Made by a program: the position numbers and the translations under genes
IMG/VR virus record: IMGVR_UViG_3300032820_000094
Coordinates: 1-26,923 of that record
Origin: a virus
Length of the DNA: 26,923 nt
Reading direction: 5' to 3' (one strand)
Part shown: piece by piece, positions 654 to 22,500 of the stretch
How the letters are laid out: every line of letters begins with the position of its first letter
Numbering within the stretch: the stretch's first letter is position 1
Notes under the pieces: generated by a model
What the model was told of the DNA's origin: nothing
Database searches by the model: none
What the model saw: only the letters and a program-made list of their open reading frames with translations

Positions 654-3191
654 TTATCTTGCGTTTGCATATTTGAATGGGGCTTCTGCGAAAGCCATGT
701 ATATATATGTGTTAGGACCATTAGTTTCATTTGGAGAATATCTTGGCTTGAAACCATTAGATAAAATATCTAAATCTGCTGTTTGAGAAGTATCTTCAAC
801 AGCACCTGTGTTAGCTTCTAATAGTGCTCTTTGAATATTATAACTACTTCTTTTAGTATCAAATATTGACCAAGAATAAGTCGCACTTCCACCTGTAGAA
901 ATTGACTTCATCATAATAAAAGCTGGTCGAAATCCTGTGTAAACAAATGGTCCATCAGCAACATTATTTCCTACATAAGATGCAATTTTTGAATACCCCT
1001 CCACCTCTGTGAAACAATACGCCAGCATTTCGACATAAGGACTTAAACCCCAACCGTAGTTGGAAAACCCTGTTGCATTGGAATTTGAACCGTAACCGGC
1101 TGAATTCCAAGCGGTAGAGGCAGTCGTAGCATTGAGTTGATTCACAGTTTCTGTCCCAGAAGCATCCGTCCACACATACCAATCAACAGCAGACCCCAAT
1201 GCCTTGTACATAACAATATTGGGCGCTACGCCAAGTCCATGCCCGATACGATCTGTAGCTGATCCATTTGGTATCCATGTGACTATTGAAAACCCCGCCG
1301 TATTATTTACTGACACTGTTGAATCTATGTCACCGTCTGTATTTGCTGATCCTGACCCGTTGGCTTTCCAGTTCCAAGTAACATAAGTAGAGCCGCTATC
1401 ATTTAAAGTAGAGTTTGTATTATTACCAACAGTAAAACCATCACTGCCAAAAGCTTTTACACCCCCACCGCTATAAGTATATTCTACATAAGTATCATTT
1501 GGAAAAACAGCATCATTGACGCCCCTTACTTGATCGTACATCTGGTGCCAATTGGTGGTATTTCTTATTTTGTTCCAAACAAGGGAAGGCTCAAAACCTA
1601 CTCCTGTTATTGCTTGGTCGGTGCCCCCATCCCCTGAATAAAGCACCGTATTAAAATGCTCTCCCGGCAGTGTAATCGTCGGGTCTGCAAGGTTCTTTGA
1701 ACAGAGGGCTAAAAATCCAGACGGGACAGAGTAGAAAAAATTTCCAATCCCGTTAGCGTCAGTATTTCCTGCCGCTGTTTTATTGCCGCTAAAGGTTCCG
1801 TTCTGACCAAAATTAACTACCGCAATACTATTGCCATAACTTAAATACCCCCCAAAACACGTGACCATTGGAACCTTATGTCCGTCTGGGATATTAATGA
1901 CGAGAGGAGTCCCAACCGCTGGAGAAGATGGAGTATTAGCAGCAGGGTCTCCATACCAAGTGCCGTTCATCCTAAACCACATTTTGTTATTTTTTATGGC
2001 AAGACCATAAATTGCACCGGATAGCCGCGTGCCGTGTTCATCTCCAACATTTGTCCAGTCTCCAGTAGGTCTGTAGGCCGCGACAATATCAGTACTGCCT
2101 GTGGAACCATTGACAAAAGCATAGGAAGAGTCAATACCATCGCTTTCTGTTTGACTTATTGATCCAACGCCTTGCCATCCTGTCCAAATAAGATCCGTCC
2201 TTCCCATCGCTTCACAGTAGACTTCAAAGTAATAGCCGGTCGAGCCAGCGGTATCGAAACCCATCGTTCCTACTGCCGTATTGTCACCACCATTAGAGTT
2301 ACCATAGGCATCAGAAACCGCTCTGAGATTGCCTTGATCAAGCTCTATATCAGCACTCAAAGTTGACATCAGGTAGTTTAACGTAGGAAAGTTATTATTC
2401 GGCGTGTCCAGCATGACATCGGTATCTGCAAGATTAACTGTCGTGTAATTAGCACTATTGCCAGAGCTATCTGTCCCTAATGCGCCTGATGCAAATTTGA
2501 AATGAAAGCCATTAGTACCATAGGTTGCGCCTGTAACTTCTTTTGGAACCCACTGATTTGTCTCTGAATTTGTTTCAGCAAAAACACTGGGCGCATATGC
2601 GGTGCCATCAATGAAATGGACTTCAGCTAAATAGCCGTCAAAATATTGAGCATTGGTTTGATATCTACCAATGTAATGCGCGTTTGTGTTATTTATATGT
2701 GTATAATGATTCTGAGGAATAGTTCCGTAGTCCGCAAACACTGAATCGGAAATTAATTGGTTATTAATATATATCTTGATGCGATCAGCAGCAGTTGCTA
2801 AAGTAGTATCGACGCTATAAACCACATGATACCAAGCTGCGGTGTCTCGTAATCTGGCATTTGTTACAAAACCATAATCTGTGGTTCCGTCCCAAGTGTA
2901 AAAAAATAAACCCCCATCAGGCTGTCCTGAATATACCTTATTGATATAAAGCATAGTAAAGTCTGAATTACTTGACCCTGCTGAAAACAACGCATGCTGT
3001 GCAGTAGTAGAAAAAGCGCCACGCTTAACCCAGCCACTCCATGTAAAAGTCCTGCGATTACCTGCCGACCCCGGTGTACGGTGGAGGTAAGCACCATCCC
3101 CAGAATTAAACACCAAAGATTGTTCAATCAGATCAGGTTCTGCTGCGACGCCACCAGAGGCCGCTATAGCTTTTAAAGTCCTTATACTCAT
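654..3191 (-). CDS. LamG/SPRY-like receptor-binding tail protein
   Basis: This 845-residue virion protein is probably an adhesin. Residues about 25-235 look like a LamG/concanavalin-type sandwich: FTWSGWVKRG near the start, AAWYHVVYSVD and KIYINNQLI in the middle, and FDGYLAEVHFIDG at the end. Residues about 265-480 resemble a SPRY-like sandwich (TGYYFEVYCEAM, IYGLAIKNNKMWFRMNGTWYG). Residues about 495-845 carry the repeated pattern GFEPSLVWNK / GVAPNIVMYK / GFRPAFIMMK with tYVTWNWKA between, a region I know from marine phage structural proteins (the DUF7483 type). The end, YIYMAFAEAPFKYANAR, is typical of those proteins. The start codon overlaps the previous stop (TAATG). LamG and SPRY folds bind glycans or proteins, so surface recognition is the likely role, by inference. 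Confidence 0.75.
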   Translation of the reverse strand: MSIRTLKAIAASGGVAAEPDLIEQSLVFNSGDGAYLHRTPGSAGNRRTFTWSGWVKRGAFSTTAQHALFSAGSSNSDFTMLYINKVYSGQPDGGLFFYTWDGTTDYGFVTNARLRDTAAWYHVVYSVDTTLATAADRIKIYINNQLISDSVFADYGTIPQNHYTHINNTNAHYIGRYQTNAQYFDGYLAEVHFIDGTAYAPSVFAETNSETNQWVPKEVTGATYGTNGFHFKFASGALGTDSSGNSANYTTVNLADTDVMLDTPNNNFPTLNYLMSTLSADIELDQGNLRAVSDAYGNSNGGDNTAVGTMGFDTAGSTGYYFEVYCEAMGRTDLIWTGWQGVGSISQTESDGIDSSYAFVNGSTGSTDIVAAYRPTGDWTNVGDEHGTRLSGAIYGLAIKNNKMWFRMNGTWYGDPAANTPSSPAVGTPLVINIPDGHKVPMVTCFGGYLSYGNSIAVVNFGQNGTFSGNKTAAGNTDANGIGNFFYSVPSGFLALCSKNLADPTITLPGEHFNTVLYSGDGGTDQAITGVGFEPSLVWNKIRNTTNWHQMYDQVRGVNDAVFPNDTYVEYTYSGGGVKAFGSDGFTVGNNTNSTLNDSGSTYVTWNWKANGSGSANTDGDIDSTVSVNNTAGFSIVTWIPNGSATDRIGHGLGVAPNIVMYKALGSAVDWYVWTDASGTETVNQLNATTASTAWNSAGYGSNSNATGFSNYGWGLSPYVEMLAYCFTEVEGYSKIASYVGNNVADGPFVYTGFRPAFIMMKSISTGGSATYSWSIFDTKRSSYNIQRALLEANTGAVEDTSQTADLDILSNGFKPRYSPNETNGPNTYIYMAFAEAPFKYANAR

Positions 3192-3919: not shown

Positions 3920-4216
3920 TTAACTCCCTAAAGTCGGCCGTGTGTCTGGAAATTCATCAGTGGACGGCCAGTCCCTTAATTCTTGTCTGTATGTGAGGTA
4001 TGCATCACGATTCGGATAGTCAGGGATTTGTGCTATCCAATCTGTTTCTTTTAATTCTTGGTCTCTCCACTCTTTTGGGGGCATTAGTGGTTCTGAGTAA
4101 GGCGTAACTGGAGGAACCTCTAACTCATAGCTTGCATATTGTGCTTTCGCAAATTCTTCTGTGGCTACTATTCTGCCTACATTCCCATCACTATCTGTTA
4201 CACGATAAATACTCAT
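3920..4216 (-). CDS. Tail assembly chaperone, copy 2 (Phage_tail_APC-like)
   Basis: This 98-residue protein is closely related to the one at 6187-6483. The N-terminal part reads MSIYRVTDSDGNV, then an IVATEEFAKAQY helix. The C-terminal part holds EWRDQELKETDW, then YRQELRDWPS. The order W-R-x-x-E-L-K-x-T-D-W followed by Y-R-Q-x-L-R-D-x-P is the hallmark of small phage tail assembly chaperones of the Phage_tail_APC type, usually encoded beside fibres or adhesins. Its ATG overlaps the stop of the glycine-rich adhesin gene by one base (TAATG), so the two are probably made in a coupled way. I infer that it assists folding or attachment of that adhesin. Confidence 0.75.
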   Translation of the reverse strand: MSIYRVTDSDGNVGRIVATEEFAKAQYASYELEVPPVTPYSEPLMPPKEWRDQELKETDWIAQIPDYPNRDAYLTYRQELRDWPSTDEFPDTRPTLGS

Positions 4217-5466
4217 TACAGTATCTCCAAAATTGTTACAACAACTAAGCCATGACCACCGGTACCGGAATTAAAGACATTAGAGCTACTGGCATAACCT
4301 ACGATTCCCCCGCCTCCAGCACCGAAACTACCTCCTCCTGAGTAGCCAGTATTAGTATCTCCTGCACCGCCGCTGTAGTTAACAACACCACCACCACCAC
4401 CACCAAAAAAGCCGGGGAGCATGGTTACATAATCTGCCGCACTGGCATAGTATGCATAACCTGACCCTCCGGCACCTGGGCCAGATACTCTGAGAATATC
4501 TCCTGGTGTTTTACTTGCACCTTGACCAGTTAAACCATGAAAAATACTAACGGCCTGACCCTGACTTGATAGATGGCCATCCTTTCCATACGGCACCGTA
4601 TATGCATAGTTCGGATAACCTTGGATTCCAGTAGACATTGTATTAACACCTAATCTTGGAGTAAAATTATGAGCCTGGTTCAAAATTGGATTATCACCTG
4701 AAGCATGGTTGGCCCAGACACCTAAATCTTTAGCACTAGTTGAAGTACTAATATCATCGCCATCGTGGTCTGCAGAACCACCTTGAGTGTGGATAAGGGT
4801 CATTATACCTCCTGATATAGTACCATCTCCACCTCTACCTCCAACACCCCCACCTCCTGTGGCAACAGCTTTATCGTAGTTATTGACAGTACATGCGGCA
4901 TTTCCACCTCTATAGGATGCTCCTAAAACGCCTGGGGCTCCACCACCCCCAGCAGCGTGATGATGGCCAGAGGCTTCCCAGTAAGAAACCGTTCCACTTC
5001 CTCCAGCACCCCCAGTGACGTTCCATATAGTACCTCCAGAAGCAGTGCCTCCAGCGCCTCCAGCAAAAGATCCAGCACCGGCAACATTTGTAGTACTTAT
5101 TCCTTGAAGACCTCCAGCACCTGGCTCACCCGTCATATCAGTAATATCAGAACCTGCAAATATAGTACCGTCAGTATGCCCAGGGTTGCCAACTGCACCG
5201 GATACAGAAGCTCCTCCAGCCCCAATAGTAATTGTATAAGTAACAGAGGAATCTAACCTTAGTAAACTTTTAGCGCAGCCTCCAGCACCTCCGCCAGAAG
5301 CAGCTGCAGTTCCGTTGTCGGTTGTGTTTCTAGCAGATCCTCCTGACCCTCCAGGGCCAATAACTGTTACATATGCTCGACAATCAAAAGGCGGCGACCA
5401 TGTTGTGGAAGTAGAAAATACCCGTTCCATAAATATTGATTCACTTTTTGATCCTAATACTGCCAT
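4216..5466 (-). CDS. Glycine-rich tail adhesin, copy 2
   Basis: This 416-residue protein is dominated by Gly-rich runs. After a short head (about 1-25, SESIFMERVFSTSTTWSPPF) comes CRAYVTVIGPGGSGG, then GGGAGGCAKSLL, then SSVTYTITIGAGGASV. This is the pattern of glycine-rich phage tail domains (PF21722-like). Further glycine blocks (AGGAGGTASGG, GGAGGSG, AAGGGGAPG, ATGGGGVGGRGG, GAGGSGY, GGGGGGVVNYSGG, GAGGGG) alternate with variable stretches that carry no glycine. In T-even-type gp38 adhesins such stretches are receptor-binding loops held on a polyglycine-II sandwich; that parallel is inference here. A GAGGTG ribosome binding site precedes the ATG. It is a paralogue of the 403-residue protein at 6483-7694, with conserved ends and a divergent middle. 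Confidence 0.75.
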   Translation of the reverse strand: MAVLGSKSESIFMERVFSTSTTWSPPFDCRAYVTVIGPGGSGGSARNTTDNGTAAASGGGAGGCAKSLLRLDSSVTYTITIGAGGASVSGAVGNPGHTDGTIFAGSDITDMTGEPGAGGLQGISTTNVAGAGSFAGGAGGTASGGTIWNVTGGAGGSGTVSYWEASGHHHAAGGGGAPGVLGASYRGGNAACTVNNYDKAVATGGGGVGGRGGDGTISGGIMTLIHTQGGSADHDGDDISTSTSAKDLGVWANHASGDNPILNQAHNFTPRLGVNTMSTGIQGYPNYAYTVPYGKDGHLSSQGQAVSIFHGLTGQGASKTPGDILRVSGPGAGGSGYAYYASAADYVTMLPGFFGGGGGGVVNYSGGAGDTNTGYSGGGSFGAGGGGIVGYASSSNVFNSGTGGHGLVVVTILEIL

Positions 5467-6186: not shown

Positions 6187-6483
6187 TTAGCTCCCTAAAG
6201 TCGGCTTTGTACCTGGAAAGTCTCCGGTACTGGGCCAGTCCCTTAATTCTTGTCTATAAGTTTTATACGCTGCTAATTGTGGGTGGTCTGTTACAGCGAC
6301 AATCCAATCTGTTTCTTTTAATTCTCGATCTCTCCAATCCTTTTCTCTCTGTGCAATTTCTGAATCAGATTTAGTTCTTAAAGGCTCTAACTCATAGCTT
6401 ACATAGTGTGCTTTGGCAAATTCTTCTGTGGCTATTATTTTACTGACGTTGCCATCATTATCTGTTACACGATAAGTACTCAT
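6187..6483 (-). CDS. Tail assembly chaperone, copy 1 (Phage_tail_APC-like)
   Basis: This 98-residue protein begins MSTYRVTDNDGNVSKIIA and carries DWRDRELKETDW and YRQELRDWPS near the C-terminus, the same signature as the copy at 3920-4216. Both copies end in PTLGS. The two differ mainly in residues 33-48, between the N-terminal helix and the WRD motif. Its ATG overlaps the stop of the 403-residue glycine-rich adhesin (TAATG). Matching each adhesin with its own chaperone copy suggests a dedicated partner for each, which is the usual logic of phage fibre/chaperone pairs. Confidence 0.75.
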   Translation of the reverse strand: MSTYRVTDNDGNVSKIIATEEFAKAHYVSYELEPLRTKSDSEIAQREKDWRDRELKETDWIVAVTDHPQLAAYKTYRQELRDWPSTGDFPGTKPTLGS

Positions 6484-7694
6484 TATAACATCTCCACAAC
6501 TGTTATCACTACTAAGCCTTGGCCGCCTCCACCGCTGTAGAAGGCATAAGAAGAACTAGTAGTATACCCTGCATTAGCGCCCCCACCAGCTCCATAACTA
6601 CCTTTAGCACCATTCGAATGGGCATTACCATAGGAAGAATCTTCACTATTAGGGGTGATTCCGCCACCGCCACCAAAAAGCCCTGGAAGATGCCAACCAT
6701 ACTGAGTACCTACCATTGCCCAATACCCAGAACCTCCTGCTCCGGGGCCAGAGAATCTTGTAGTAGAGTCTAAACTCTTTCTACCCGGAGACCCATGTAA
6801 TCCATGAAAAATACTAGCGGGAGTACCCGCCATTCCCCTAGAGGAATCATATTGATCTGTCCAGGCACCTGCGCCTGCAACAGCACTATGCATATTAAAC
6901 AATCCTGTTTCAGTATAATCATCCGAGTCACAGCTAACTATTCTTCCTGTATTATCAAACATATTTCCATCATTGGGATAAACGAGGGTAATACTTTCTC
7001 CATCTCCCCAAGCAGAGCCTCCACCTCCTCCAGCTGTACCATTTGATCCTACAGAAGTAGCATCTCCGCCGTTACCATTAACACCAGCACCTCCCCCTAA
7101 AGCTATTTTATTTGCGCCTCCAGTGTTGCATATTGCATTACCTCCTCGATGAGATTTACCAAAAATACCAGCGGCTCCACCGCCTCCAGCAGCAATATGA
7201 ATCCCATAATCTGCGTAATCAGGAACCGCTCCACTTCCTCCAGCACCTCCAGTGCAATTAAATATAGTACCTCCTGAGGCAGCGCCTCCAGCACCTCCGG
7301 CTTGGGTAGTCACAGCATTAGCGCCTCCAGCACCTAAACCCCCAGAGCCTAAATTGCCCGCCATATTGTCTATATCAGAGCCTTGAAATTCACTATTTCC
7401 CCCACCATCATTACCATCAGCATTATCTACAGAAGCTCCGCCGGCTCCAACAGTAATTGTATAAGTAACAGAAGAACTCAGTGTTAATAAACTTTTAGCA
7501 CAGCCTCCCGCGCCTCCACCAGATCCAACATAGGATCGGTGATCTCCATCATCCTTATAAGAACCACCTGACCCTCCTGGGCCTATAACTGTTACATAAG
7601 CTCTACAATCATATGGGGGAACCCAGGAAGCAGAAGACTGAAAAAGCCATTCATGAATTATTGATTCGCTACTTGCTCCAAATGTATAAGCCAT
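6483..7694 (-). CDS. Glycine-rich tail adhesin, copy 1
   Basis: This 403-residue protein is built like the 416-residue copy. A head of about 25 residues has SESIIHEWLFQSSASWVPPY, then CRAYVTVIGPGGSGG, GGGAGGCAKSLL and SSVTYTITVGAGGASV. A series of Gly-rich runs and glycine-poor loops follows, ending in GGGGQGLVVITVVEML. The last residues match the GLVVVTILEIL end of the other copy. The middle, about 90-330, is where the two differ, which is expected if these loops contact the receptor. The ribosome binding site AAGGAG lies inside the last codons of the preceding fibre gene (GGA-TGG-AAG-GAG-ATA-TAA), so translation of the two is tightly coupled. The function as receptor-binding adhesin is inferred. 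Confidence 0.75.
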   Translation of the reverse strand: MAYTFGASSESIIHEWLFQSSASWVPPYDCRAYVTVIGPGGSGGSYKDDGDHRSYVGSGGGAGGCAKSLLTLSSSVTYTITVGAGGASVDNADGNDGGGNSEFQGSDIDNMAGNLGSGGLGAGGANAVTTQAGGAGGAASGGTIFNCTGGAGGSGAVPDYADYGIHIAAGGGGAAGIFGKSHRGGNAICNTGGANKIALGGGAGVNGNGGDATSVGSNGTAGGGGGSAWGDGESITLVYPNDGNMFDNTGRIVSCDSDDYTETGLFNMHSAVAGAGAWTDQYDSSRGMAGTPASIFHGLHGSPGRKSLDSTTRFSGPGAGGSGYWAMVGTQYGWHLPGLFGGGGGITPNSEDSSYGNAHSNGAKGSYGAGGGANAGYTTSSSYAFYSGGGGQGLVVITVVEML

Positions 7695-10235: not shown

Positions 10236-10646
10236 TTAGTAAGACCCTCCGTCTAAAGTATCAGAATCTCCTGTGCTCATTGCAATTGGAATCCAATCGT
10301 ACACATTTGAAGAAACTTCTCTGTAGATTTTTAATGTTTCTGTATCTGATTCGTACCAAAGATCTCCTTGTTCCACATTCCCTCCTGAAGGGGTATCATC
10401 GCCTCGGAAACTTTGGTCTGCTAACTCTTCTAATGCGGTTTGAAGATTTGAAGATTCAATAGTATTATAGGGAGTTACAGCTATATTTGCTGCATCCTGA
10501 AATTGCGCTGGAAGAGCCAAATTATTCACAGTAACAAGAGTAGTAGTATTATCGTCTAATGTTACTCCTATACTATTAGTATTTGTCACAGTAATATTTG
10601 TGATTTCTTCCGTTATTGCGACCTTTGTACCTAGTGAATCTGTCAT
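10236..10646 (-). CDS. Small fibre/baseplate-type structural protein, 136 residues
   Basis: This 136-residue protein reads through a beta-rich first half (VAITEEITNITVTNTNSIGVTLDDNTTTLVTV) and then NTIESSNLQTALEELADQSF, a helix-like link seen between domains of marine phage fibre proteins. After it comes GGNVEQGDLWYESDTETLKIYRE, a segment resembling a fibre head-binding or linker domain. It ends LDGGSY, like the DGGTY end of the next gene. Its ATG overlaps the stop of the preceding gene (ATGA). It is probably a virion protein joining the baseplate-type protein to the fibres; no precise function can be assigned. Confidence 0.55.
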   Translation of the reverse strand: MTDSLGTKVAITEEITNITVTNTNSIGVTLDDNTTTLVTVNNLALPAQFQDAANIAVTPYNTIESSNLQTALEELADQSFRGDDTPSGGNVEQGDLWYESDTETLKIYREVSSNVYDWIPIAMSTGDSDTLDGGSY

Positions 10647-10981
10647 CTAGTTACCTGCTGATTAATAGTAACACTTCCTTGTATAAGTCTTTTAACAGTA
10701 GCATCATTTGCTGTATGAATTTCTAAGTCATACACATATCTTCCGGCAGCTAAAGCAGTTGTAGTGGCTGCTTGGAGTTCTAGTTTCATAGTACCATTTG
10801 CCGCATTCACTATAGTTACTGTAAAACTAGCCGAGGTAGACGTAGCAGCGTGAGTTGTACGTATCTGTGCCCGTCCTGAGTAGCCAGTAAGATTCTTAGC
10901 TGTTCCACCCTCTGTAATTGTCAGATCAATCGCAAAGTCGGAACCTTGGTCAATCACTAGGTCATAAGTAGCTGCGGTCAT
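10643..10981 (-). CDS. BppU-N-like baseplate/fibre-attachment protein
   Basis: This 112-residue protein has the pattern LVIDQGSDFAIDLTITEGG, then NLTGYSGRAQIRTTH, G-T-M-K-L-E-L, LAAGRYVYDLEI and a final GSVTINQQVTR. The order Q-G, L-T-G-Y, A-Q-I-R, and G-x-Y-x-Y-D-L is that of a small beta-sandwich found in phage baseplate or fibre-anchoring proteins (BppU N-terminal-like). It is the first gene after the promoter at 11002-11030, with GGAG ten bases before the ATG. I infer it to be the adaptor that holds the fibres made by the genes after it. Confidence 0.6.
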   Translation of the reverse strand: MTAATYDLVIDQGSDFAIDLTITEGGTAKNLTGYSGRAQIRTTHAATSTSASFTVTIVNAANGTMKLELQAATTTALAAGRYVYDLEIHTANDATVKRLIQGSVTINQQVTR

Positions 10982-11050: not shown

Positions 11051-11617
11051 TTACGTAAACGGGGGCCCACTATACCACTGTACTAAAGAGTATCTTATTC
11101 CCTGGCTTACAGGAGTAACTTGGTGAGATAAAGAAGAAGGAAAAATTATAACACTACCCTTTTGTTTTGCCCCTAACGGGATATTTAGTACTTTTTCTCC
11201 CCAACAATCTTTTATTTCGAATTCTCCTCCATTATATTGATCATAGTCAGACAACTGAACAGTTATAGAAATTTTTCTTTGTGTTTCAGAGTCTACGTTA
11301 CAGTCCCTATGCCAAGTATAAAAATCATCTTTTTCATATTTTGTAAATTGTATCTTTTCAGAGTTATTTAGATTAAAATTCCATTCATTCAATCTATTGG
11401 TTCTAAAAACGTAAGCAAGAAGTAATTGGTCTACCCAGCAATCTTTTGAAAACCAACCTACTTTCCCATCTCTTACAGTTGAATCAATATCTCTACCTTG
11501 ATTAACTGTTGCACTTTCTTGTGTTAATATTAAACCTTCTTCGATAATCTTATTACAAATTTCATCAGAAAGTGCCCTCATCCATATACCTAGAGGCGCC
11601 TTTTTTATTTGTTTCAC
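11051..11617 (-). CDS. 2-oxoglutarate/Fe(II)-dependent oxygenase, prolyl-hydroxylase fold
   Basis: This 188-residue enzyme of the PKHD/prolyl 4-hydroxylase-type superfamily would hydroxylate a protein or small-molecule substrate using O2 and 2-oxoglutarate. The Fe(II) ligands are visible as H103 and D105 (YTWHRD) and H165 (SLSHQV); R175 (GIRYSLVQWY) fits the 2-oxoglutarate carboxylate contact. GGEFEI at 130-135 is the usual core strand. All key residues are present, so it should be active. The start is a GTG at 11617, two bases after the stop of the tip-protein gene, so it is co-transcribed with tail genes. The substrate is unknown. The collagen-like Pro-rich segment of the adjacent tip protein is a possible target (inference); a modified host metabolite or lipopolysaccharide is an alternative. 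Confidence 0.8.
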   Translation of the reverse strand: MKQIKKAPLGIWMRALSDEICNKIIEEGLILTQESATVNQGRDIDSTVRDGKVGWFSKDCWVDQLLLAYVFRTNRLNEWNFNLNNSEKIQFTKYEKDDFYTWHRDCNVDSETQRKISITVQLSDYDQYNGGEFEIKDCWGEKVLNIPLGAKQKGSVIIFPSSLSHQVTPVSQGIRYSLVQWYSGPPFT

Positions 11618-11619
11618 TA

Positions 11620-14600
11620 TTACAGTTTTCCTAATTTTACTCTTAAATTATCATCATCCCATACTTCTATAGCGTTCTCACCGGATTCAGTATTAAAATA
11701 GATCACACTTCCAGTTCCGGCGTCTGATGAGATTGCCAATTTTGACGCAGTAATAGAGTTAGCATTTAAATGATCAGTCCCAATAGTATCAGTAACTATT
11801 AGACTTCCATCAATTAGCGCAGTAATTTCTCCCCACGTAGTAGTTTGACCTACTCCAACAGTACCAGTAACCGCAGTAACTATCCACCCTTGGGAACTAT
11901 TACTATCTCTGACTAATGCCTGGTCATTAACTATAGGATACCTTCCCACCTTGTTATACCATTCTGTATTAGTAGGCGCATTAGTATCGTCAGTACCACT
12001 ATTTTGAAATGTAGTAAAAGTTGAAAAATCAGCCCCTGGTCCTGTGGGACCGGGCGGCCCAGGTCCTCCCCCAGGCCCAGGCCCTCCCCCAGGCCCAGGA
12101 CCGCCAGACGGTCCTGGCGGCCCAGTAACACTAAACTGTCCTGCAAACGAAAAATCAGTACCATCAAACTTCATATAGTTTGTATTATCACCTATATGAA
12201 CTCTTCCAGAGCCATCCATAAAGAACCCTTTTGTACTGTCCCCATATGCAGTCTTAGCATGACTATAAAATTTTGCGCTCGAGTCGCTATTAGAGGTACC
12301 TACCTTTAATATACTTCCTACATTTACTTGATTTGATATTGTTGAATCTGCAGATAGTGTTCCTGCAGATAATGTACCATCTACAATTACACTGCCATCA
12401 AATTCTGCCGTCACAACTGAACTAAAAGCAGAAGCTCCTACAGTAGCACTTGTTGCAGTTGCTGCACCAGTATAAATACGAGTAGAGACTGTATCTTCAA
12501 ATTTTACAGTTATTCTATCATTTGGAACAATTCTTTTTGTCCCCGTAGTAGTACAGGGCTGGACATTAGCATGTCCTATTACTGCGGCCGCAACAGCTGC
12601 TGCAACTGTATCATCTAAAGTTCCTTTAAAGGTTGTTGCTTGCGCAGAAGTCATAGTTAAAGTTAGGGTAGACCCATCTCGTGTTGAAACTCTAACTCTT
12701 CGTAAATTAATTGTTCCTTTTGCTAACACATAGTTATTGGATCTGTCAAAGACACTCCAGTATATTTCACCTTTTTCATAATTAGTACTTGTAAAATCAT
12801 CCAATATATTAGCAGTAGCTTTAATAGTAATTTCGCCAGTAGCAGATATATCTACGTCACCATACGTGTATATATTATTATTTACAGTCTCCGATCCGAA
12901 TGCGACCCCTTGGGCATCCCCCGTACCTGCTCCTGTAATTGTGATTCCATAACCAGTATCACCAGAAGGAGCATAACTAAGTTCATCGGCTCCCTTTATT
13001 ACCTTAAAAGTACAACTAAAATCATTGGTAATATTATTTGAGCTATCAACTATAAAGATATGCTCTCCATTATCTGCTGTTGCAGAAGCGGAGACAGTGT
13101 CTGGAATTGCGCCATGATTGGCAAAAATAGTCCAATCAGCTTCTACAACTTCTACGACATTCTCAACCCCAGAAACTGGAGCCATGGATGCAACCCACAA
13201 ACTAGTTCCTGCTGTGCTGCCCCAAGATGTCTCCTCCCTCTTAGTGTACCACCCTGTTGAAGCATCCACTATATCAATAATTTGACCGTTACTATCAATT
13301 TCCGAATCACCCAGAACGGGGGCCGCTAAAGTCTCCCATCCTAAAGTGCCAGTCTGAAGACTAATATTTAAATCCGGTATCTGATAACCTTGAAAATTTC
13401 CTCTAACTTCTGATTCAGTAGCCCCATAGTTGAAAACTTTCCAAAGTTCTGGGGTGGCTTCTGTATTACCTGTTTCTGCATTAGCAGTTCCAGATACACC
13501 TATTCCAGGGTCTGTTTCTACATAAAGTACTGCTGTTGCTGCTGCTGCGCCCGCAGAAAAAGTTAGGGTAGGAGCAGCAGTATACCCACTACCTGCATTA
13601 GTTATTGTTACGCCAGTTACTGTTTCATCTGTTAAAACTACTGTTCCTGTTGCTGTAGTATGTAAAACTGCTGTTGCTGCTGCTGCACCAGTACTAAATG
13701 TTACAGCTGGAGCGCTAGTATACCCACTACCTGCATTAAGGACTGTAATAGCTGTAACTGCCCCTCCTGCAATGGTGGCGGTGGCGGTAGCAGTTGTTCC
13801 TGAGGAGGGGGCAGCAATTGTTACAGTTGGTGCACTAGAATAACCACTACCTGCATTAGTAATTGTAAAGCTTTTTATAGAAAGATTAGGGGCACTAAAG
13901 GTTACAGTTGGAATACTTGAGTAACCACTACCTGCCGCAGTAACTTCAATAGTCTTTACAGTATCAATTAAAGGGGCGGGCTCCCAGAAAGAGGGAACCT
14001 TATCTCTTGTATGACGAACCCAGTAATAGTAAGTAGCATTTGTATCAATATCTAGAAGGGTATCGGTGTACTCTTTAATAGGGGGATCCAAAACTGCTAA
14101 TGATCCTGCCCCGCTTCCTTCACTATAGTAACTATTATCATGGCGATAAAGTTCAGTTGTCCATTGTGACTTTTTACCTCTTCCAAAAGTTGCAGCGTTA
14201 TTCCATGCTAAATTAATAACATTGCTTCCCCCTCCTGCTGTTAGGTCGGTGGGTCTTCCAGGAATAGCACCTTCGTCAGTGATTGGGCCTTCAGGACCTT
14301 CCCCTGTCGCTTCTCCAAGTTTCTTTTTCTTCAGATCAATTTTATAAATTGAATCATCATGTTCTTCAGCAGTTACCTGCACTAAACAATCTTCTCGAAC
14401 TTGTAAATTACTTATTCTAAAAGGCTTATCTGTCCATTTAAAGCGAGGATAAGTAATTAAAATTATCATGCCAGAAACTAATAAAACACCTTGTGGGCCA
14501 ACTTGAAAATTAATTTTTCTTCCATATCTCGAATCAATTAGATATTGCTCTGCATTCATACGAGCATTAAAAAAGTTTGTAACTAATGGAGTTTTTACAT

Positions 14601-17600
14601 CTTTTTTCTTAGGAATTCCTCGATCTTCCTTCAAATAATCACTATTATAAAAACTTACGCTACGTTTATCATACCTAATAGCAGGGTCAGAAATACCTAC
14701 AGATACAGTATTTGCACTACCTTTTAATCCAGCGTCATCGACACTAATGGTTCCAATAATATCATCCGCATTAATTCGTCTCGGTTCTGTATACGCAATA
14801 CTATTATGAGTTATAGTAGCAGGAATAGTATCTGCTGCTATTTTTATATCTAATACATATTTTCCTGCAGAATACCTAAGTATCCCATTGAAGTGCTTAA
14901 GCAATGAATTAACATTATCAAACACAGGAGTTTCTGAACGGATTACACAGTTAGTTTGATGACGGGTTACTTCTCGTTGATTATGGTCTTGCCAACCCAA
15001 ATATCTCCAATATTTTACATCATCTGAATCATATAGGGAGTACCCACTAACAGAAAAGTTCTTATCATTTGAGTCATAAGATTTAACAACCGGATTATGA
15101 TCCCAAGAAGACTCTCTTGCGGAAGCATAAAAATCACCAACAGCTACTGTACTACCTATAAATACATTTGCTGTGGTATTCCCCTTCTTTAAGGTTAGGA
15201 CTGTTTCTTCGTCGGTGCTCTCAATAGGTTCTCCTATTGTAGTATTATTCTGTTCAACCTTGAAGATTTTATTTTTTTCTCCAATCTTATGATAAATATA
15301 TTCCCCTATATTATAAGATTTCCAGTCATGCCATTTATGCGCTATTTTTCCTATACAGTTTGTAAAAGTGACTTGTATTTTGTTAGCATAATCCCCAGAA
15401 GAAATAGTTGAAGCATAATATACAGTACCTTGCCACTGAAAATAATCAGTACTATCAACGGTTGAAGTGAATGACCATTTCTCCCCAGGAGTAAAAGTCC
15501 CACTTTCCATTATTAAAGTTACATCTGATTTAGTATCACACAATCTTGCAGTTTGTTGAAAAGACGCTATATCTATATCTTTATCTAAGTCTAAGCCCTT
15601 TCCGTAGCGTTCACTAATTAAGTAGTCTAATAATTGTATAGCTGGATTAATTGATACTTTTGTATCTCCAGGAGGTAGAATTTCCCATCTAGTATTATAC
15701 GCGCTAGTTTTAACTCCGTCATCACTAGTTTCTTCATCCGTTCCAAGAGGAACGAATTGGAAAGGCTCAGGAGTAACAGTAGTAGCAGTAGTAGAACCCG
15801 TTGCAATATTAGATGTAATAATAGAGCCTGCGAGAAAATTACAAGCAGTATCAACAGTTATAGTTTTTGTACTGGTATTTACAGCTGTAATTTTAGTGCC
15901 TTCTGGAATATACGAATTGTAACCCGTTTCAGTATTGATAACGTGTTTTAATACTTGACCTGCAGCAAGGTCTGTTACAGCTTCTGTTAAAATAACTGTA
16001 ACACTTGAGGTTTGAGTTGCAGCAACTGTATAAGACCCTTTATTATCTACACCCGCTGCTACAGGCCCCAGCGAACCTGTATAAGCAACTTGTTTCGCAC
16101 CGTTGTACCCAATAATTTCTCTAGTTTGGGTTTTGATGTCCCCCGCAGGTAAAGTTGTTGTTACTTTTATTCGCTGCCCTTTAAAATAATCATCATTATC
16201 TGAAATTGCAGCAGGCACCAGAGCGCCGTCACCTAAATAAATGGCATTTGTTATTAAAAGACCTGTTAACTCCGATATACCCGCACTTGTTCCTCCGGCA
16301 CCGGCAACTTCAAAAGTACCTCCACTTCCTGATACATTTGGGTCTGATCCGCCGCCATCTAACTGAACTTGCATTAAATTTTCTAAAAGATCTTCAGCTG
16401 TAATTGTAATAGTACTGCCAAAGAGTGCAATAGTAATACCACCACTATCAGTCAGATAAGATAGCCATTCTTTCATATCTGTAGACAGTTCTGATATATC
16501 TATTCCTTCAGTAGCATTGGCAGCAACTGTACCGTTACCATCCCCCGAAGTAACTGTAATGGCTTGAAGCATTGTTTTTGTTAAACTATCTGAAGACGCG
16601 GCTTTATGGTTCCAAGTAACCATTTCATAAGCGCTAGAATGGTCATGTGCTTCGTCAAGCTGCACCATCTTAAAAGAAGTAATAGTAGTACTGCCCCCTA
16701 ATGGATCAGAAGAAAACCTATACTTCCAGACTTCTTCTTCGCGAGAGTTTAAATATTTAGTTAAATCTAATATTTGAATACTTTCAGAAGGAACTAATTC
16801 AGTGCCATCAAGTTCATAAAAATCTACAATATCTCCAATTTTAAATAAGTCACGTTTATCAGAATCGTAAGATTCCGTAGGATTAGCTCTATAGGAATAA
16901 TCATAATTATATTGTTCAAGCTCTTTCCCACGAACCACGAACTCTAGTTGAGGAATTGTTACATCCCCTTCTGCAATTTCAAATTCAGCAGCTACATACG
17001 CAGTATCAAGAAGCCTATGGTTAGGAGTCCAATAGTTATCAGCATACTCTGAATCACCTTGAAGTTTAAAGCCTGCATATTTATTAGTTGTAGTTTTATC
17101 TCTTCCTGCTGCAGCAATACCTGTTAACATATCATTTGATCGTTGATAAGGACGTCCTGCATGAAACTGTAGCTTGCCCTGTATAGGAAACTTTATACGA
17201 GTTTGTTTTTCGTGTGTTACTCCTGCATCTGAATTATCACTTTCTACAGCAGCATCATTTTGGCCGTATGTAGCAGCCCAATGAGCAAAACGACCCCCCA
17301 GCCAGCTGTGCTCCCAACCACCTTGATATTGTCCCGCCCATTGGTTCACCCCTCTATTAGCAGAAACAGCAGAACTTAAAGTATCTCCCCTATCCATTCT
17401 ACCTGAACAAATTACATCAATAGTCTCTTCACTTGTCTGCTCGCTTCTAACCTCTTCGTCATTCTTGTCTACACAGACTCGGGACTGATCGTCTATATAG
17501 ATATCATACAACCCGCTGACTTCTCCTTCACAAATTGCATAAGCAGTATAAACTTTAGTAGCATCACCAGGTCCAGGAATATTTGTATCTGCAAAAATAG

Positions 17601-18783
17601 GGACACTATCTACACGATTAACTCCATATACAATAGGTAAATGTTTAGCTTCTAAATTAAGTCTTAAATCAACTTCTCTATCAACTTCTACTTGGTACTC
17701 TACTTGCTTATATTTTTTAAATATCCACCCAGACTTTTTCAGTTTATACCTAGTTTCCATTACTTGGTATATTGCGATTATATTTATGGCTTGTTCACTG
17801 TGCATAAAGCCATAATCCCCCGCATACTCATATCTATGGAGAGAAGAAGGGTCAGGCTGCCCCCTTGTTGAAATAGCCCTGTGTTCTTGATCGGATGTTA
17901 TTCTGCCATTTACCCTGACAAAATCACCCCAATGACTTGTTAAAGTCCAAGTAACTTTTGAGTCTTTATTAGGATCTTCCGAAAGTTTAACCTTAGCAAT
18001 AATTCCTTTGAAGATTAAATAAGGGCCTTTTTTATTATTAGCTTCAAGTCCAATGATAGCGCCTGTTTCAGTATTAATATGAGCTTTATAAATAGAAACT
18101 TCCCTATTTATATAACCTGCATAAGTAGCATCATTGGGATCATTAAGAATTGCAACAACTTCATCAGTAGATAAGTCAACTATAACACCAGTTTCAGCAT
18201 CAGTGATTGTAGCGTTTGGTGTGGCCGTATCTCCACCTACTATAGTACATGTCGCTTTTTTATCATATACAGAAAAACTATTAATAGTAAGGCTTATACT
18301 CCATGTAGCATTAGTAGAGCAAGTAATAGTAACTTTATCGCCTTCTGAAAACCCTCTATCTAGCCAAGAATCACTATTTGTACCTGTTAATTCCATAGTG
18401 GCTGTAGTGCCAGAAGCTGTAAGGGTTATTCCATCATCTGTTACTGCAGTATAAGTAGCCCCTAAAGCTATGGAGGCGATATCAAGACTTAAATTTGTGG
18501 CCTTAGCCTCGGTAGTCTCATTAATTCCTCCGACTTTTAAAACTCGATTAGCGACATAAGTTTGAGCCCCATTAGCGGCCCCTTCTACATCACTACTTTC
18601 ATCATCCCATACAAGGTCTACAGAGGCATCTGTAATATAAGAATAATCGGTGGCGGATTCTGAGGGTTTAGCAGTTTGAGTTTTTACTACTCTCTCAAAC
18701 TTTATAAGATGAGCATATACAAAAGGTTCCCCCTTCAGAAGAGATTCTTCAACATCTGGGCGTAGTGTACGCAATTGAATCAT
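11620..18783 (-). CDS. Giant gpJ-like tail tip / host specificity protein
   Basis: This 2387-residue protein has a beta-rich hub-like region at about 1-330. A gpJ-type core follows, with LPIVYGVNRVDSVPIFAD near 380 and NPAIQLLDYLISERYGKG near 1045, a phrase characteristic of lambda J-type tip proteins. It continues to about 1490 (QVGPQGVLLVSGMIILITYPRF, RISNLQVREDCLVQVTAEEHD). A fibronectin type III-like domain lies at about 1510-1608 and four AGSGY beta-repeats at about 1610-1745. Residues 2221-2250 are ten collagen Gly-X-Y triplets, and the end has DGSLIVTDTIGTDHLNANSI, as in J-type C-termini. Between the two core halves (about 690-1040) sits a Ser/Thr-rich insertion. It forms the tail tip, probably contacts the receptor and opens the tail. 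Its ATG overlaps the previous stop (ATGA). It is about twice the length of lambda gpJ. Confidence 0.85.
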   Translation of the reverse strand: MIQLRTLRPDVEESLLKGEPFVYAHLIKFERVVKTQTAKPSESATDYSYITDASVDLVWDDESSDVEGAANGAQTYVANRVLKVGGINETTEAKATNLSLDIASIALGATYTAVTDDGITLTASGTTATMELTGTNSDSWLDRGFSEGDKVTITCSTNATWSISLTINSFSVYDKKATCTIVGGDTATPNATITDAETGVIVDLSTDEVVAILNDPNDATYAGYINREVSIYKAHINTETGAIIGLEANNKKGPYLIFKGIIAKVKLSEDPNKDSKVTWTLTSHWGDFVRVNGRITSDQEHRAISTRGQPDPSSLHRYEYAGDYGFMHSEQAINIIAIYQVMETRYKLKKSGWIFKKYKQVEYQVEVDREVDLRLNLEAKHLPIVYGVNRVDSVPIFADTNIPGPGDATKVYTAYAICEGEVSGLYDIYIDDQSRVCVDKNDEEVRSEQTSEETIDVICSGRMDRGDTLSSAVSANRGVNQWAGQYQGGWEHSWLGGRFAHWAATYGQNDAAVESDNSDAGVTHEKQTRIKFPIQGKLQFHAGRPYQRSNDMLTGIAAAGRDKTTTNKYAGFKLQGDSEYADNYWTPNHRLLDTAYVAAEFEIAEGDVTIPQLEFVVRGKELEQYNYDYSYRANPTESYDSDKRDLFKIGDIVDFYELDGTELVPSESIQILDLTKYLNSREEEVWKYRFSSDPLGGSTTITSFKMVQLDEAHDHSSAYEMVTWNHKAASSDSLTKTMLQAITVTSGDGNGTVAANATEGIDISELSTDMKEWLSYLTDSGGITIALFGSTITITAEDLLENLMQVQLDGGGSDPNVSGSGGTFEVAGAGGTSAGISELTGLLITNAIYLGDGALVPAAISDNDDYFKGQRIKVTTTLPAGDIKTQTREIIGYNGAKQVAYTGSLGPVAAGVDNKGSYTVAATQTSSVTVILTEAVTDLAAGQVLKHVINTETGYNSYIPEGTKITAVNTSTKTITVDTACNFLAGSIITSNIATGSTTATTVTPEPFQFVPLGTDEETSDDGVKTSAYNTRWEILPPGDTKVSINPAIQLLDYLISERYGKGLDLDKDIDIASFQQTARLCDTKSDVTLIMESGTFTPGEKWSFTSTVDSTDYFQWQGTVYYASTISSGDYANKIQVTFTNCIGKIAHKWHDWKSYNIGEYIYHKIGEKNKIFKVEQNNTTIGEPIESTDEETVLTLKKGNTTANVFIGSTVAVGDFYASARESSWDHNPVVKSYDSNDKNFSVSGYSLYDSDDVKYWRYLGWQDHNQREVTRHQTNCVIRSETPVFDNVNSLLKHFNGILRYSAGKYVLDIKIAADTIPATITHNSIAYTEPRRINADDIIGTISVDDAGLKGSANTVSVGISDPAIRYDKRSVSFYNSDYLKEDRGIPKKKDVKTPLVTNFFNARMNAEQYLIDSRYGRKINFQVGPQGVLLVSGMIILITYPRFKWTDKPFRISNLQVREDCLVQVTAEEHDDSIYKIDLKKKKLGEATGEGPEGPITDEGAIPGRPTDLTAGGGSNVINLAWNNAATFGRGKKSQWTTELYRHDNSYYSEGSGAGSLAVLDPPIKEYTDTLLDIDTNATYYYWVRHTRDKVPSFWEPAPLIDTVKTIEVTAAGSGYSSIPTVTFSAPNLSIKSFTITNAGSGYSSAPTVTIAAPSSGTTATATATIAGGAVTAITVLNAGSGYTSAPAVTFSTGAAAATAVLHTTATGTVVLTDETVTGVTITNAGSGYTAAPTLTFSAGAAAATAVLYVETDPGIGVSGTANAETGNTEATPELWKVFNYGATESEVRGNFQGYQIPDLNISLQTGTLGWETLAAPVLGDSEIDSNGQIIDIVDASTGWYTKREETSWGSTAGTSLWVASMAPVSGVENVVEVVEADWTIFANHGAIPDTVSASATADNGEHIFIVDSSNNITNDFSCTFKVIKGADELSYAPSGDTGYGITITGAGTGDAQGVAFGSETVNNNIYTYGDVDISATGEITIKATANILDDFTSTNYEKGEIYWSVFDRSNNYVLAKGTINLRRVRVSTRDGSTLTLTMTSAQATTFKGTLDDTVAAAVAAAVIGHANVQPCTTTGTKRIVPNDRITVKFEDTVSTRIYTGAATATSATVGASAFSSVVTAEFDGSVIVDGTLSAGTLSADSTISNQVNVGSILKVGTSNSDSSAKFYSHAKTAYGDSTKGFFMDGSGRVHIGDNTNYMKFDGTDFSFAGQFSVTGPPGPSGGPGPGGGPGPGGGPGPPGPTGPGADFSTFTTFQNSGTDDTNAPTNTEWYNKVGRYPIVNDQALVRDSNSSQGWIVTAVTGTVGVGQTTTWGEITALIDGSLIVTDTIGTDHLNANSITASKLAISSDAGTGSVIYFNTESGENAIEVWDDDNLRVKLGKL
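12034..12123 (-). repeat. Collagen-like segment: ten Gly-X-Y triplets
   Basis: Within the tip-protein gene, ninety bases code for exactly ten triplets: GPP, GPS, GGP, GPG, GGP, GPG, GGP, GPP, GPT, GPG. The DNA contains a 17-base unit repeated with an 18-base period (plus-strand 12065-12081 and 12083-12099) and is far richer in GC than its surroundings. Short collagen triple helices act as stiff trimeric stalks in phage tail proteins. Five triplets have proline in the Y position. Confidence 0.9.
13490..13945 (-). repeat. Four GSGY beta-repeats in the tip protein
   Basis: Residues about 1610-1765 of the tip protein contain four units of the form (x)-AGSGY-(S/T)-(S/A)-x-P-x-(L/V)-T-(F/I), separated by Ala/Thr-rich strands such as GAAAATAVL. 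The DNA shows matching repeats around actacctgca (plus strand). Such units are common in large marine phage structural proteins and probably form a beta-helix or stacked beta-domains. Confidence 0.75.
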
Positions 18784-19523
18784 AGGTATTCTTCTAGCTT
18801 GAGGTTAAATTTATAAAGATTATCCGTTCCTAAAGAATATTGTTGAAGCGCTTTAGGCAGTATTACTTTGAATTTAGTGCCTTTAAAGACAAGGGGTTTA
18901 GAGGCGGGAACTTCTTTTATTAAAGGAGGGTTTATACCAATATTAAGATTAGTTGCAGCCGCAGGTTGAGCTCCGCTGCCGCCATACACATAATAAGTCT
19001 CTACATAAGTAACCATATACACTTTAGTGTGATTAGTGTTTGTATCATCGCTAATAGTAAAAATATCCCCTGGTGCAGGGATATTGGTAGCGGTAGCATT
19101 ATTCGGAACTAGCCCCCATTCAGCCTTTCCAATTTTTAAACTAGTTGTTCCAGCTGACTGGGTTCCTACTGTTGCTAATGAATTAACATATCCGTCCGAA
19201 GAAAAAGTAGCATTTCTAGGTTCTGAATATTGGGGTAATGCCGCAAAAAATGGAGTTAAAGGGCCTCGTTGCTGTAGTAAAAAAGTATGAACAGGCTCAA
19301 ACTCCTCTCTAGTCATTGGATGATAGCCTATATCAATATTCCACTTATGTCCTGCAACAGATCGAGCAATAACTCGTTGAGAATTTGTTCTCGACATTAA
19401 CATTTTCTGATCGGAAGTTAGTTTTACACTTGCAAAACCTGGACCAGCGTCTCCACTGGCGTCATTTGCGCCCCACGAACCTCTTTTATTAGTGGGGTCT
19501 GGTAATATAGTTGCAAAAGCCAT
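18780..19523 (-). CDS. Distal tail protein (Dit/gpM-like)
   Basis: This 247-residue protein lies between the tape measure and the tip protein, the place of distal-tail proteins in siphoviruses. An N-terminal beta-region carries SRTNSQRVIARSVAGHKWNIDIGYHPMTREEFEPVHTFL, a pattern (trp-rich strand, Y-x-x-M-T-x-E-E-F, then a helix and R-G-P-x-x-P-F) typical of phage minor tail proteins that sit at the tube end. A middle region (about 105-200) is Thr/Asn-rich and looks like an insertion. The end, LPKALQQYSLGTDNLYKFNLKLEEYL, is a final strand pair as in Dit-like proteins. It would form the hexameric ring joining tube and tip. One base separates it from the tape-measure stop. Confidence 0.65.
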   Translation of the reverse strand: MAFATILPDPTNKRGSWGANDASGDAGPGFASVKLTSDQKMLMSRTNSQRVIARSVAGHKWNIDIGYHPMTREEFEPVHTFLLQQRGPLTPFFAALPQYSEPRNATFSSDGYVNSLATVGTQSAGTTSLKIGKAEWGLVPNNATATNIPAPGDIFTISDDTNTNHTKVYMVTYVETYYVYGGSGAQPAAATNLNIGINPPLIKEVPASKPLVFKGTKFKVILPKALQQYSLGTDNLYKFNLKLEEYL

Positions 19524-19524
19524 G

Positions 19525-22500
19525 TTATAGTCTCGCTATAGAGCCTTGATGAGGGGTATAAACTGTATCATCTACCATTTCAAAAAATTCTTCGCCATGT
19601 ACGTTGGCTGCAGTTCTAAGCATAGATATAATGTGGCCCTGCTGTTGGGTTAATACTTCTTCAACCCCTGCTGAATCTACAGCATTAATATTAAAAGTAA
19701 CGACTCCAGCTCCTCCGCCTATGTCATCAGTCTCATCTGCAGATACTATTGTTCCGGGTCGATCCGGCATAAAAAGTTCTGGCCCTTGCTCGCCAACTAC
19801 ATACCCTGCACTACCTCCTGCTGCTCTGTGTCGCACTCCGTAGAAAGCGGACCTAAAGTTTTCTGGGCCGCCAATTCCTTGACCACCTCTTAAATACGCT
19901 AATTCTCCACGAGCGGATTTACTCTTTGCCATATCAACGGTATTTTTTCTTTCTCCTACTGCGATGCTTGTGGGCATTGATGTGCCAGCCCCTCCCATAT
20001 TACCACCGCCTTGGAAAGAGGTACCTGCAATCATAGCGAGTTGAGCTGCTCCCATTGCTAAAACTATCGGAGTTAGCATTCCTGCACCGATTTTAAACCA
20101 ATCCACTGGATTTGCCCAGACTGACGCAACAGCAGCAGCAGTAGAAATTATAACATTTGCCATCTGCATCTTCTTATTCATCTCGAAGTTCTTTCGAGCC
20201 ATTCCTTCTTTTTTCTTTTCAAGAGCTTTAATTCGGGCTAAGCTTTCTTTTGATTTTCCATCTCGTTTTTTCTCAGCTTTAATTTCGGCATCAATTCCTC
20301 TCATTCTGTTTTGGTGGGCAGCGTTCATAATTCCACTAACGCTTGACAAGACTGCACCAGCTACTTGGAAACCTGCTGCCATTCTTTTTGCGGAATTGTC
20401 CCCTGCTTCGCCCATCAACTGCACAGCAGTTATCATAGTGCCCATACCCATAGAGACCTGGGACATTAGTTCTCCCTCTGGTCCTAAAGCTGCAAAGTCT
20501 GCTGCCATATTTTTAAATACATTTTTTGCATTACCTTCCGATAATGTGGACAATTCCTTATTTACATTTTCAACCAAGCCTGGCATTGCTTTCAGACGCG
20601 CTTCCTCTGCCTCCGTCATCGCCACGCCATGTTCCGCCATACCTTGCAGGCCACTCCATTCACTTTGTAACCCTGCCTTCTTCTTTGTTGTCTGTTCCAC
20701 ATTTATAAGATGCTGCAAGCCGCCTGCTGCGGTCGCACCAAATTTGCCAGCACCTCGCATCTCTTCGGAAAGCCGTCTCATTCTAGCTTGTTCAGTAATT
20801 GCCTTTTCTATTTCAAGTATTCTTAGTTTTTGTTGTATTTTTGCCTTGTCTGTCTCATTCGCTGCATTTGCTAGTTCTAATGTAGCTTGTGCTATTTCAT
20901 TAATTTTTACTCTGATGTTAAGGTCTTCTTCTAATAGGGTTTTACTTATTCCGGTTATGCCGTTGAGCTCCGCAGTACTCGCTGCTAATGCGTCTTGTTC
21001 CATCTGAATGGCTTCCATTGCAGATAATAAAACATTTGCATCTGTACCTTCGCCGAATAATTCTTTAAACTTCTCTTGAAGCTCTGCTAGTTTTCCGGCC
21101 CGCCCAGTTGCATCCTCTACACCTTCTCCGGCATCCTCTCCGGCATCCCTCAACTGTCTTAGAGCTGTTATGGCAGACCGCATATCTCCACCACCTAAAG
21201 CATCTTTTACTGATGTTTTTGTACTTGTTAGACCTTCTTCGAAGAATTTAAGCTGCACATTTGTATCTGAAAGATCTTTAGCAAGAGCTAGTAGATCGGA
21301 GTCATCCCCTGCCAGAGCTTTTTTTAAGGCTGCAGCATATTTAGGGGATAACTTAGTTAAACCTCCCATTCTCTTTGATAACTCGTCAACGGCTCTTGCC
21401 CTATCTACTTCATTTAGTACTGATTTAGTATCAAATTTCTTCGTTTCGGTATTCCATACTTTTGTTTCTGCCCCTAGTTTTTTGAAGAGACCCGCAACAT
21501 CCAAACTAATTAACCCATTAAATGCTTTTGTAGAAGGATTTATACCCTCAGAAACTGCTTGTTCCATACCAAGTGCAACACCTCCTAAAGATTTTTCGGA
21601 GGCTTTTGCTGCGTCAATAAACTCTCTTAACGCATTAGCACTAGCTTTAATTGCGTCTTGTTCCGCTTCATGCGCTGCTGCTCTTTTACCTAAACTACTC
21701 TCTGTGAGTATCTTTTCAAACCTTGTACCTTCGTCATTAATTTTTACGTAAGCACCTGCCAGGTTGCTGACTTCAGCAGTTACTTGCTTATAGTCATCAG
21801 GATCAGGGGGATCTTGAAGGTCAAAAGTACCCAAACTTGCACCTGTCACTGTATTAAAAGTCTCTATTAAACCATTAGCGGCTTCTTTTGCAGAATTAAT
21901 AGCAGCTATCATTTTCTCTGCAAAGACTTTCCTAATGCTAGTTATTATATTAGTTACTCCTGCCTTGATGTTGTTCCAAGTATTCAAAACTGAGTCGCTC
22001 ATACTGAGAAACCCTTTAATTATCCAGTCTAGTAAAGGAGCGGTGAAATTAACTATATTGTCTGCCATTCTAGCAAATCCTAATGCTATGGTCATAGGAG
22101 ATTCTAATAATCTTTGGCCCATGTCCCATATTAACTTAATTATGCCTACAATTCCGGCCATTTTCATGGCTTTATCCATGACTTTACCAGCCATCCGTGC
22201 GCCTTTTGCCAAACCTAGAAACATAGTTCTACCTATTACGCCTACACCTTTAAATACTAATTTTGTCCTTTTACCCCAAAGCACGACGCGCTTACCCATC
22301 CTTTGAAAGACATTAGCATGCTTAGCTTGCATTCTATTAAGGGCACCTTCGGTACTATTAACAAGATCTGAATTAACTTTTGCAAACATGCCCCTAGTAA
22401 CTTTGCCCGAATCCTGCATCTGCTTAGTGTAGCTGTCTAAGCCCTTTCGCATCATGGCTTCGTCCGAGCCACGCATTTCGCCTTTAGCCGCACGTTTAAG

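Follow-up and report, generated by a model that had tools for sequence, protein, structure and literature searches.

A candidate prolyl hydroxylase genetically paired with a collagen-like tail stalk in a marine phage

Does a phage hydroxylate the collagen-like stalk of its own tail? The question is raised by the 26,923-base IMG/VR virus record IMGVR_UViG_3300032820_000094 (the whole stretch analyzed here, referred to as the window), a siphovirus tail module of a phage described as marine, with its main genes on the minus strand. In this module, a J-like tail-tip/central fiber protein of 2387 amino acids (positions 11620 to 18783, minus strand; PHROG 31) is followed by a stand-alone 2-oxoglutarate (2OG)-Fe(II) oxygenase of 188 amino acids (11051 to 11617, minus strand), and only 2 bases separate the tip stop codon (11620 to 11622) from the GTG start of the oxygenase (11617). 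Tip residues 2221 to 2250 (12034 to 12123, minus strand), the proposed substrate, read GPPGPSGGPGPGGGPGPGGGPGPPGPTGPG, i.e., 10 unbroken Gly-X-Y (GXY) triplets with Pro at Y in five and at X in seven. The GXY score of the tip (10) lay beyond chance, given that 300 shuffles of the same protein scored 5 at best (mean, 3.0). An original prediction made from the letters alone had described the ten triplets, the five Y prolines, and the oxygenase 2 bases after the stop; the open reading frames and the shuffles confirmed these features and all of their coordinates. We consider the oxygenase to be probably (at about two chances in three) a phage-encoded prolyl hydroxylase of the collagen type that acts on the tail stalk.

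Active site and predicted fold of the oxygenase

The oxygenase matched PF13640 (59.8 bits, with a cut-off of 27; E value, 5e-16) and PHROG 61 (E value, 1.7e-36), a family labeled in PHROG as moron/auxiliary metabolic gene (AMG). A search of the window for PF05118 gave no match and was deemed uninformative. In an alignment of 65 relatives, four residues were invariant: H103 of the HxD motif (codon at 11309 to 11311), D105 (11303 to 11305), the distal iron ligand H165 (11123 to 11125), and R175 (11093 to 11095), all on the minus strand. The first three are the iron ligands, and R175, from knowledge of the fold, we take to be the binder of the 2OG carboxylate. The HxD...H metal site and its basic 2OG binder are thus complete, as had been proposed from the single sequence. 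In animal collagen prolyl 4-hydroxylases (P4Hs), the C5-carboxylate of 2OG is bound by Lys, and the window oxygenase and all of its relatives differ from the animal enzymes in having Arg175. PHD2 and the lysyl hydroxylases (LH3) carry Arg at this last position of the site; Arg175 therefore leaves work on collagen possible.

PKHD-type hydroxylases were the nearest solved structures in a single-sequence search, in which P4Hs were weakly matched. With a profile of 65 sequences, E values were 2e-15 for PKHD, 3.5e-10 for the prolyl hydroxylase of chlorovirus PBCV-1, and 1e-9 for the Chlamydomonas P4H. The PKHD-type enzymes (Sbal_3634, PDB 3dkq; PiuC/YbiX) gave the best PDB sequence match in the catalytic half (phmmer E value, 6e-9), but they are longer proteins, and all NCBIfam PKHD models remained below their cut-offs for the window oxygenase (best, 67.2 of 143 bits). 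An AlphaFold model of the oxygenase (pLDDT, 95; pTM, 0.91) was compared with the PDB using Foldseek. The top matches were PPHD, Dictyostelium PHD, Cr-P4H, vCPH, and PHD2, together with PKHD/PiuC, with TM scores of up to 0.74 (PHD2); the best fold match was a Pseudomonas P4H in complex with EF-Tu. The predicted fold is closest to those of prolyl hydroxylases, with a full-length double-stranded beta helix of the prolyl hydroxylase type.

Pairing of the enzyme with collagen-like tail proteins

Relatives of the oxygenase were gathered irrespective of GXY content, and a tree of 117 of them placed the window oxygenase in a clade of 10 rows (clade A; SH-aLRT, 96). All 10 lay directly behind a giant tip gene with a full or interrupted GXY stretch, and seven of the clade A tips had 9 to 37 triplets by the score used. 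Two relatives with 47% identity that were outside the tree (L577 and L579) had 21 to 22 triplets. A GXY tip was found in 0 of 18 assessable rows of the sister clade (32 rows, mostly in cyanophage-type replication contexts). None of 500 shuffles clustered the GXY label on the tree as strongly as observed, a result to which near copies contribute. Other oxygenase clades adjoined collagens of 15 to 193 triplets in non-homologous tail genes (L164-L170, L173, L175, L176, L182, and L193). L108, L164-L170, and others form a divergent clade, and the L171-L175 set and L182/L193 likewise stand beside long collagens. The Pfam Collagen model (PF01391) matched relatives in L108, L009, L164, L175, and L182; it did not match the window tip up to an E value of 0.1 because the stretch is too short. 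GXY calls in L153, L162, and L235 were discarded as Gly-rich non-collagen sequences.

The pairing was also examined from the side of the tail. The gene for an LtfC-like/BppU-N-like tail protein (10643 to 10981, minus strand; PF23926, PHROG 1084), a syntenic marker downstream of the oxygenase, served as the query, so that tips were chosen without regard to either trait. At least six triplets were present in 11 of 61 non-redundant oxygenase-less tips, compared with 9 of 12 clade A tips (Fisher P = 2e-4), and the GXY stretches of clade A were richer in Pro than those of the oxygenase-less tips (P = 0.003). The oxygenase was absent in 50 of 50 cases in which a tip gene of this syntenic family was free of GXY. 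The window tip consists of a core (residues ~2 to 1602) common to oxygenase-less phages and a C-terminal part that forms the variable stalk. Over residues 2 to 1602, identity between the L081 and window tips is 59%, but L081 has a different C terminus, no GXY, and no oxygenase, whereas the L003 tip (56% identity over the same core) has both. Stalk and enzyme therefore seem to come and go together. A further tip relative (L083:9323-9928), whose C-terminal end lies in a second open reading frame through a frameshift or a sequencing error, has short remnants of the type GPAGPSGPG and lacks the oxygenase.

From the side of the collagen, viral contigs were drawn by two codon-pattern scans for GPPGPPGP or GPTGPTGPT, whatever enzymes they encoded. 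An oxygenase of this family lay at most 5 kb away in 13 of the 197 sampled contigs with at least six triplets. Its density decayed with distance from the collagen: 12 per 651 kb at <2 kb, 2 per 451 kb at 2 to 4 kb, and 0 per 663 kb at >4 kb. Twelve of the 14 oxygenases in these collagen-only samples were downstream of the collagen and on its strand (P = 3e-6). Collagen thus often occurs without the enzyme, and the enzyme of these clades seldom occurs without collagen.

A second, PLOD/LH3-like enzyme and the division between proline and lysine

Several loci of another clade (clade B) encode a protein of ~600 amino acids that combines Glyco_transf_25 and GT_PLOD (E values down to 9e-55) with a 2OG-oxygenase domain at its C terminus. 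This is the domain set of animal LH3/PLOD. The three domains were found in one chain beside Lys-rich collagen tail fibers in L171 (923-2779), L175 (9324-11156), L374 (2798-4621, minus strand), and L411 (2-1769, minus strand), the oxygenase domain being below the Pfam cut-off in L175 and L374. The phage proteins are mostly annotated as hypothetical. Cultured phages also carry the gene, i.e., Synechococcus phages S-PRM1 (L481:8995-10839), S-CAM9 (L482:8995-10839), and S-8S53/55/56 (S-8S55, L483:8992-10857) and Roseobacter phage CRP-6 (L484:8908-10677). A tail fiber of 55 to 99 triplets lay just upstream of it in S-PRM1, S-CAM9, S-8S55, and CRP-6 (four of four examined). Around the collagen tail fiber of S-8S55, six genes annotated as 2OG-Fe(II) oxygenases occur within ~10 kb (L483:7815-8995 and 12525-17157). 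A predicted methyltransferase-like gene (CELGAGSG motif), which may encode a further fiber-modifying enzyme, stands between the collagen fiber and the PLOD-like gene in L535, L538 (7126-7947), and L555 (6028-6828).

Collagen Lys followed this enzyme. The fraction of Lys at Y was 0.15 to 0.38 with the PLOD-like gene and ~0 without it (P = 2e-6). Lys-rich L108, an apparent exception, had the gene elsewhere on its contig, as predicted, and L316, the other exception, is an 8-kb fragment. A scan confirmed 449 PLOD loci in IMG/VR, 80 of which were kept, and GXY was present on the same contig in all 58 that were assessable. The collagens of the window clade are without Lys, and no PLOD-like gene was found in the window or in the window-clade contigs searched (L003, L010 at 94.6 kb, L006, and L014).

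Collagen Pro, in turn, followed the stand-alone oxygenase. When the oxygenase was counted anywhere on the contig, Pro and oxygenase occurred together on 43 contigs of the PLOD-positive set and were both missing from 11; Pro alone was present on 2 (a 26-kb and a 30-kb fragment) and the oxygenase alone on 1. In 4 of the 43, the oxygenase was elsewhere on the contig, unlinked to the collagen, and in L495, L496, L497, L560, and L561 it overlapped the PLOD gene; before overlapping and unlinked copies were counted, the association of Pro content with a nearby oxygenase was not significant (P = 0.15). The Fisher value for the full table (5e-9) was not relied on, since the rows are not independent and the tree leaves a single independent pair. 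The 11 contigs with neither form one clade and thus represent one transition. The complete genome of CRP-6 adds a second case, with no stand-alone oxygenase and an X-Pro fraction of only 0.06. In oxygenase-less PLOD-positive genomes, the collagen is nearly free of Pro, while Thr, Asp, and Asn remain. We read this as the stand-alone oxygenase acting on proline and the PLOD-like protein on lysine. The original prediction had tied enzyme to stalk by adjacency only; the link now also draws on the clade A pairing, its recurrence in divergent clades, and the contig-wide tracking of the oxygenase by collagen Pro.

Proposed mechanism, alternatives, and implications

The sequences show a complete set of active-site residues, a predicted fold, the order of the genes, their pairing in several clades, a parallel loss, and the split between Pro and Lys. 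What the enzyme does, on which residue, when, and to what advantage we infer as follows. The oxygenase would be translated together with the tip protein and would work on the unfolded GXY stretch in the host cytoplasm, with O2, Fe(II), and 2OG. Prolines at X and/or Y of the nascent stalk would be converted to hydroxyproline before trimerization; collagen chains cannot be modified once the trimer has formed (PMC8968730). Hydroxyproline would stabilize the triple helix, as in animals, and would probably benefit the phage by making the triple-helical stalk of its tail tip stiffer and more stable. Phages with Lys-rich collagens would add the PLOD/LH3-like enzyme, presumably for hydroxylysine and its glycosylation.

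The proposal that the phage hydroxylates its own stalk thus gains from the genetic pairing in tail-linked clades, but two of its parts did not hold. Pro at Y had been taken as the target, a rule we rejected: none of the 16 triplets of L006 has Pro at Y, and the clade B collagens are mostly Gly-Pro-Thr (L167 type), with Pro at X only. The P4H of Bacillus anthracis hydroxylates (PPG)n at X as well as at Y prolines (PMC8968730), so mixed X/Y patterns in phage collagens fit such an enzyme. A family-wide role did not hold either. The survey of relatives that had been suggested found the oxygenase beside GXY throughout clade A and, at the level of the family, mostly without GXY nearby. We therefore dropped the rule that any PHROG 61 oxygenase implies collagen and limit the claim to the tail-linked clades.

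Several observations weigh against a prolyl hydroxylase of the stalk. By sequence, PKHD/PiuC is slightly closer to the oxygenase than P4H is. The window GXY stretch has 10 triplets only, and L002, L004/L103, and L014 of clade A have short or interrupted runs only (e.g., GPPGGPGPPG). Collagen is missing from the neighborhood of most PHROG 61 relatives, among them those of cultured cyanophages (e.g., beside uvsW) and pelagiphages; in cyanophage S-SCSM1, a distant relative adjoins a tail fiber that lacks GXY; and many phage collagens are without this enzyme. In L555 (L610:2952-3515), the oxygenase lies by an LtfC-like gene and a 100-triplet, Lys-rich, almost Pro-free collagen. Finally, the Pro-loss test amounts to about two independent cases (the 11-row clade, one independent pair in the tree, plus CRP-6).

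The L555 oxygenase would be easier to understand if the same collagen-like tail protein were modified on a non-Pro residue (Asn, Asp, Thr, or Lys) or outside the GXY stretch. Related folds do hydroxylate Lys, Asn, and Asp, and Y-Pro is not universal, being absent from L006 and giving way to GPT in clade B and to GND/GQD in L010. We nevertheless regard such a target as unlikely: prolyl hydroxylases have the nearest folds, Lys goes with the PLOD-like enzyme, and, in the PLOD-positive set, genomes without the stand-alone oxygenase have almost no collagen Pro yet keep Thr, Asp, and Asn. A little less credible is that the oxygenase gene is cargo (a moron) that came to rest behind the tip gene and that its product acts on a host protein, such as EF-Tu or a ribosomal protein. 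The label of the PHROG family, the many relatives in non-tail contexts, and the best fold match, a related enzyme acting on EF-Tu, all speak for cargo. Cargo would not track collagen, however, and the oxygenase does so in its paired absence with GXY from L081, in its distance decay and orientation in the collagen-only samples, in its unlinked co-occurrence with collagen Pro, and in its absence from GXY-free tips of the same syntenic family.

Cyanophage 2OG-Fe(II) oxygenases have been ascribed to DNA repair or 2OG metabolism (PMC3037559), and for the broad family a role in DNA or RNA repair or in 2OG metabolism during infection has been proposed in the literature (PMC3037559; PMC11288001). The sister clade does occur in DNA-replication surroundings. 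Tail operons are the only setting of the window clade, PF09859 (oxidative demethylation of damaged DNA) matched the oxygenase only below its cut-off (E value, 0.011), and such a role leaves the association with collagen unexplained. We thus consider it very improbable for the window clade.

The window also encodes a T5 pb9-like distal tail protein (18780 to 19523, minus strand; matches to T5 pb9 domains and PHROG 1302) and a tape measure protein of 1365 amino acids that is distantly T5-like (19525 to 23622, minus strand; 28% identity). Elsewhere in the window, a gene pair is clearly duplicated in tandem (3920 to 5466 and 6187 to 7694), each copy consisting of a 98-amino-acid chaperone-like protein and a Gly-rich adhesin-like protein of ~400 amino acids. 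An 845-amino-acid protein with a LamG/SPRY-type-looking domain (654 to 3191) is probably a receptor-binding fiber.

Bacteria and viruses have been said to lack the prolyl hydroxylases that stabilize collagen (PMC3368898). In the open-access literature, we came across no description of phage collagen being hydroxylated on proline or lysine, subscription papers being mostly outside this coverage, so that priority is uncertain. Collagen-like tail fibers such as EPclA of O157 prophages (PMC3368898) share the GXY stalk, but the window system has in addition a genetically paired candidate prolyl hydroxylase. The enzyme vCPH of PBCV-1 (PDB 5c5t) is likewise encoded by a virus, is about as large, and has the 2OG-Fe(II) prolyl hydroxylase fold (TM scores to the window model, 0.70/0.72); unlike the window oxygenase, it comes from a virus of algae, it shares only 17% identity over the structural alignment, and no report of its pairing with a tail protein was found. 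The B. anthracis P4H is a bacterial precedent for a loose choice between X and Y, but it is a host gene with a weak profile match (E value, 6e-5), and its substrate is not a virion protein. The known viral case for collagen lysine modification is Mimivirus, whose L230 protein both hydroxylates collagen lysine and acts as a glucosyltransferase (PMC9546862). L230 and animal PLOD (LH3) resemble the GT25 + GT_PLOD + 2OG-oxygenase protein of phage relatives of the window system; the phage version, encoded outside the window, differs in having two glycosyltransferase domains in one chain.

On balance, we favor the broader view that phages encode an animal-like collagen maturation for their tail fibers, consisting of a stand-alone prolyl hydroxylase like that of the window and, in other phages, an LH3-like protein whose domains belong to the galactosyltransferase family, the glucosyltransferase family, and the lysyl hydroxylases. 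Each enzyme would suit the fiber on which it acts in its content of Pro or Lys. This raises the question of whether the domain order of animal LH/PLOD has phage relatives. If the proposal is true, compact soluble collagen-modifying enzymes would be available for the production of hydroxylated collagen in bacteria. Phages would use collagen hydroxylation in building their tail fibers, and an "auxiliary" gene family that is very common in phages would have one branch that serves virion maturation.
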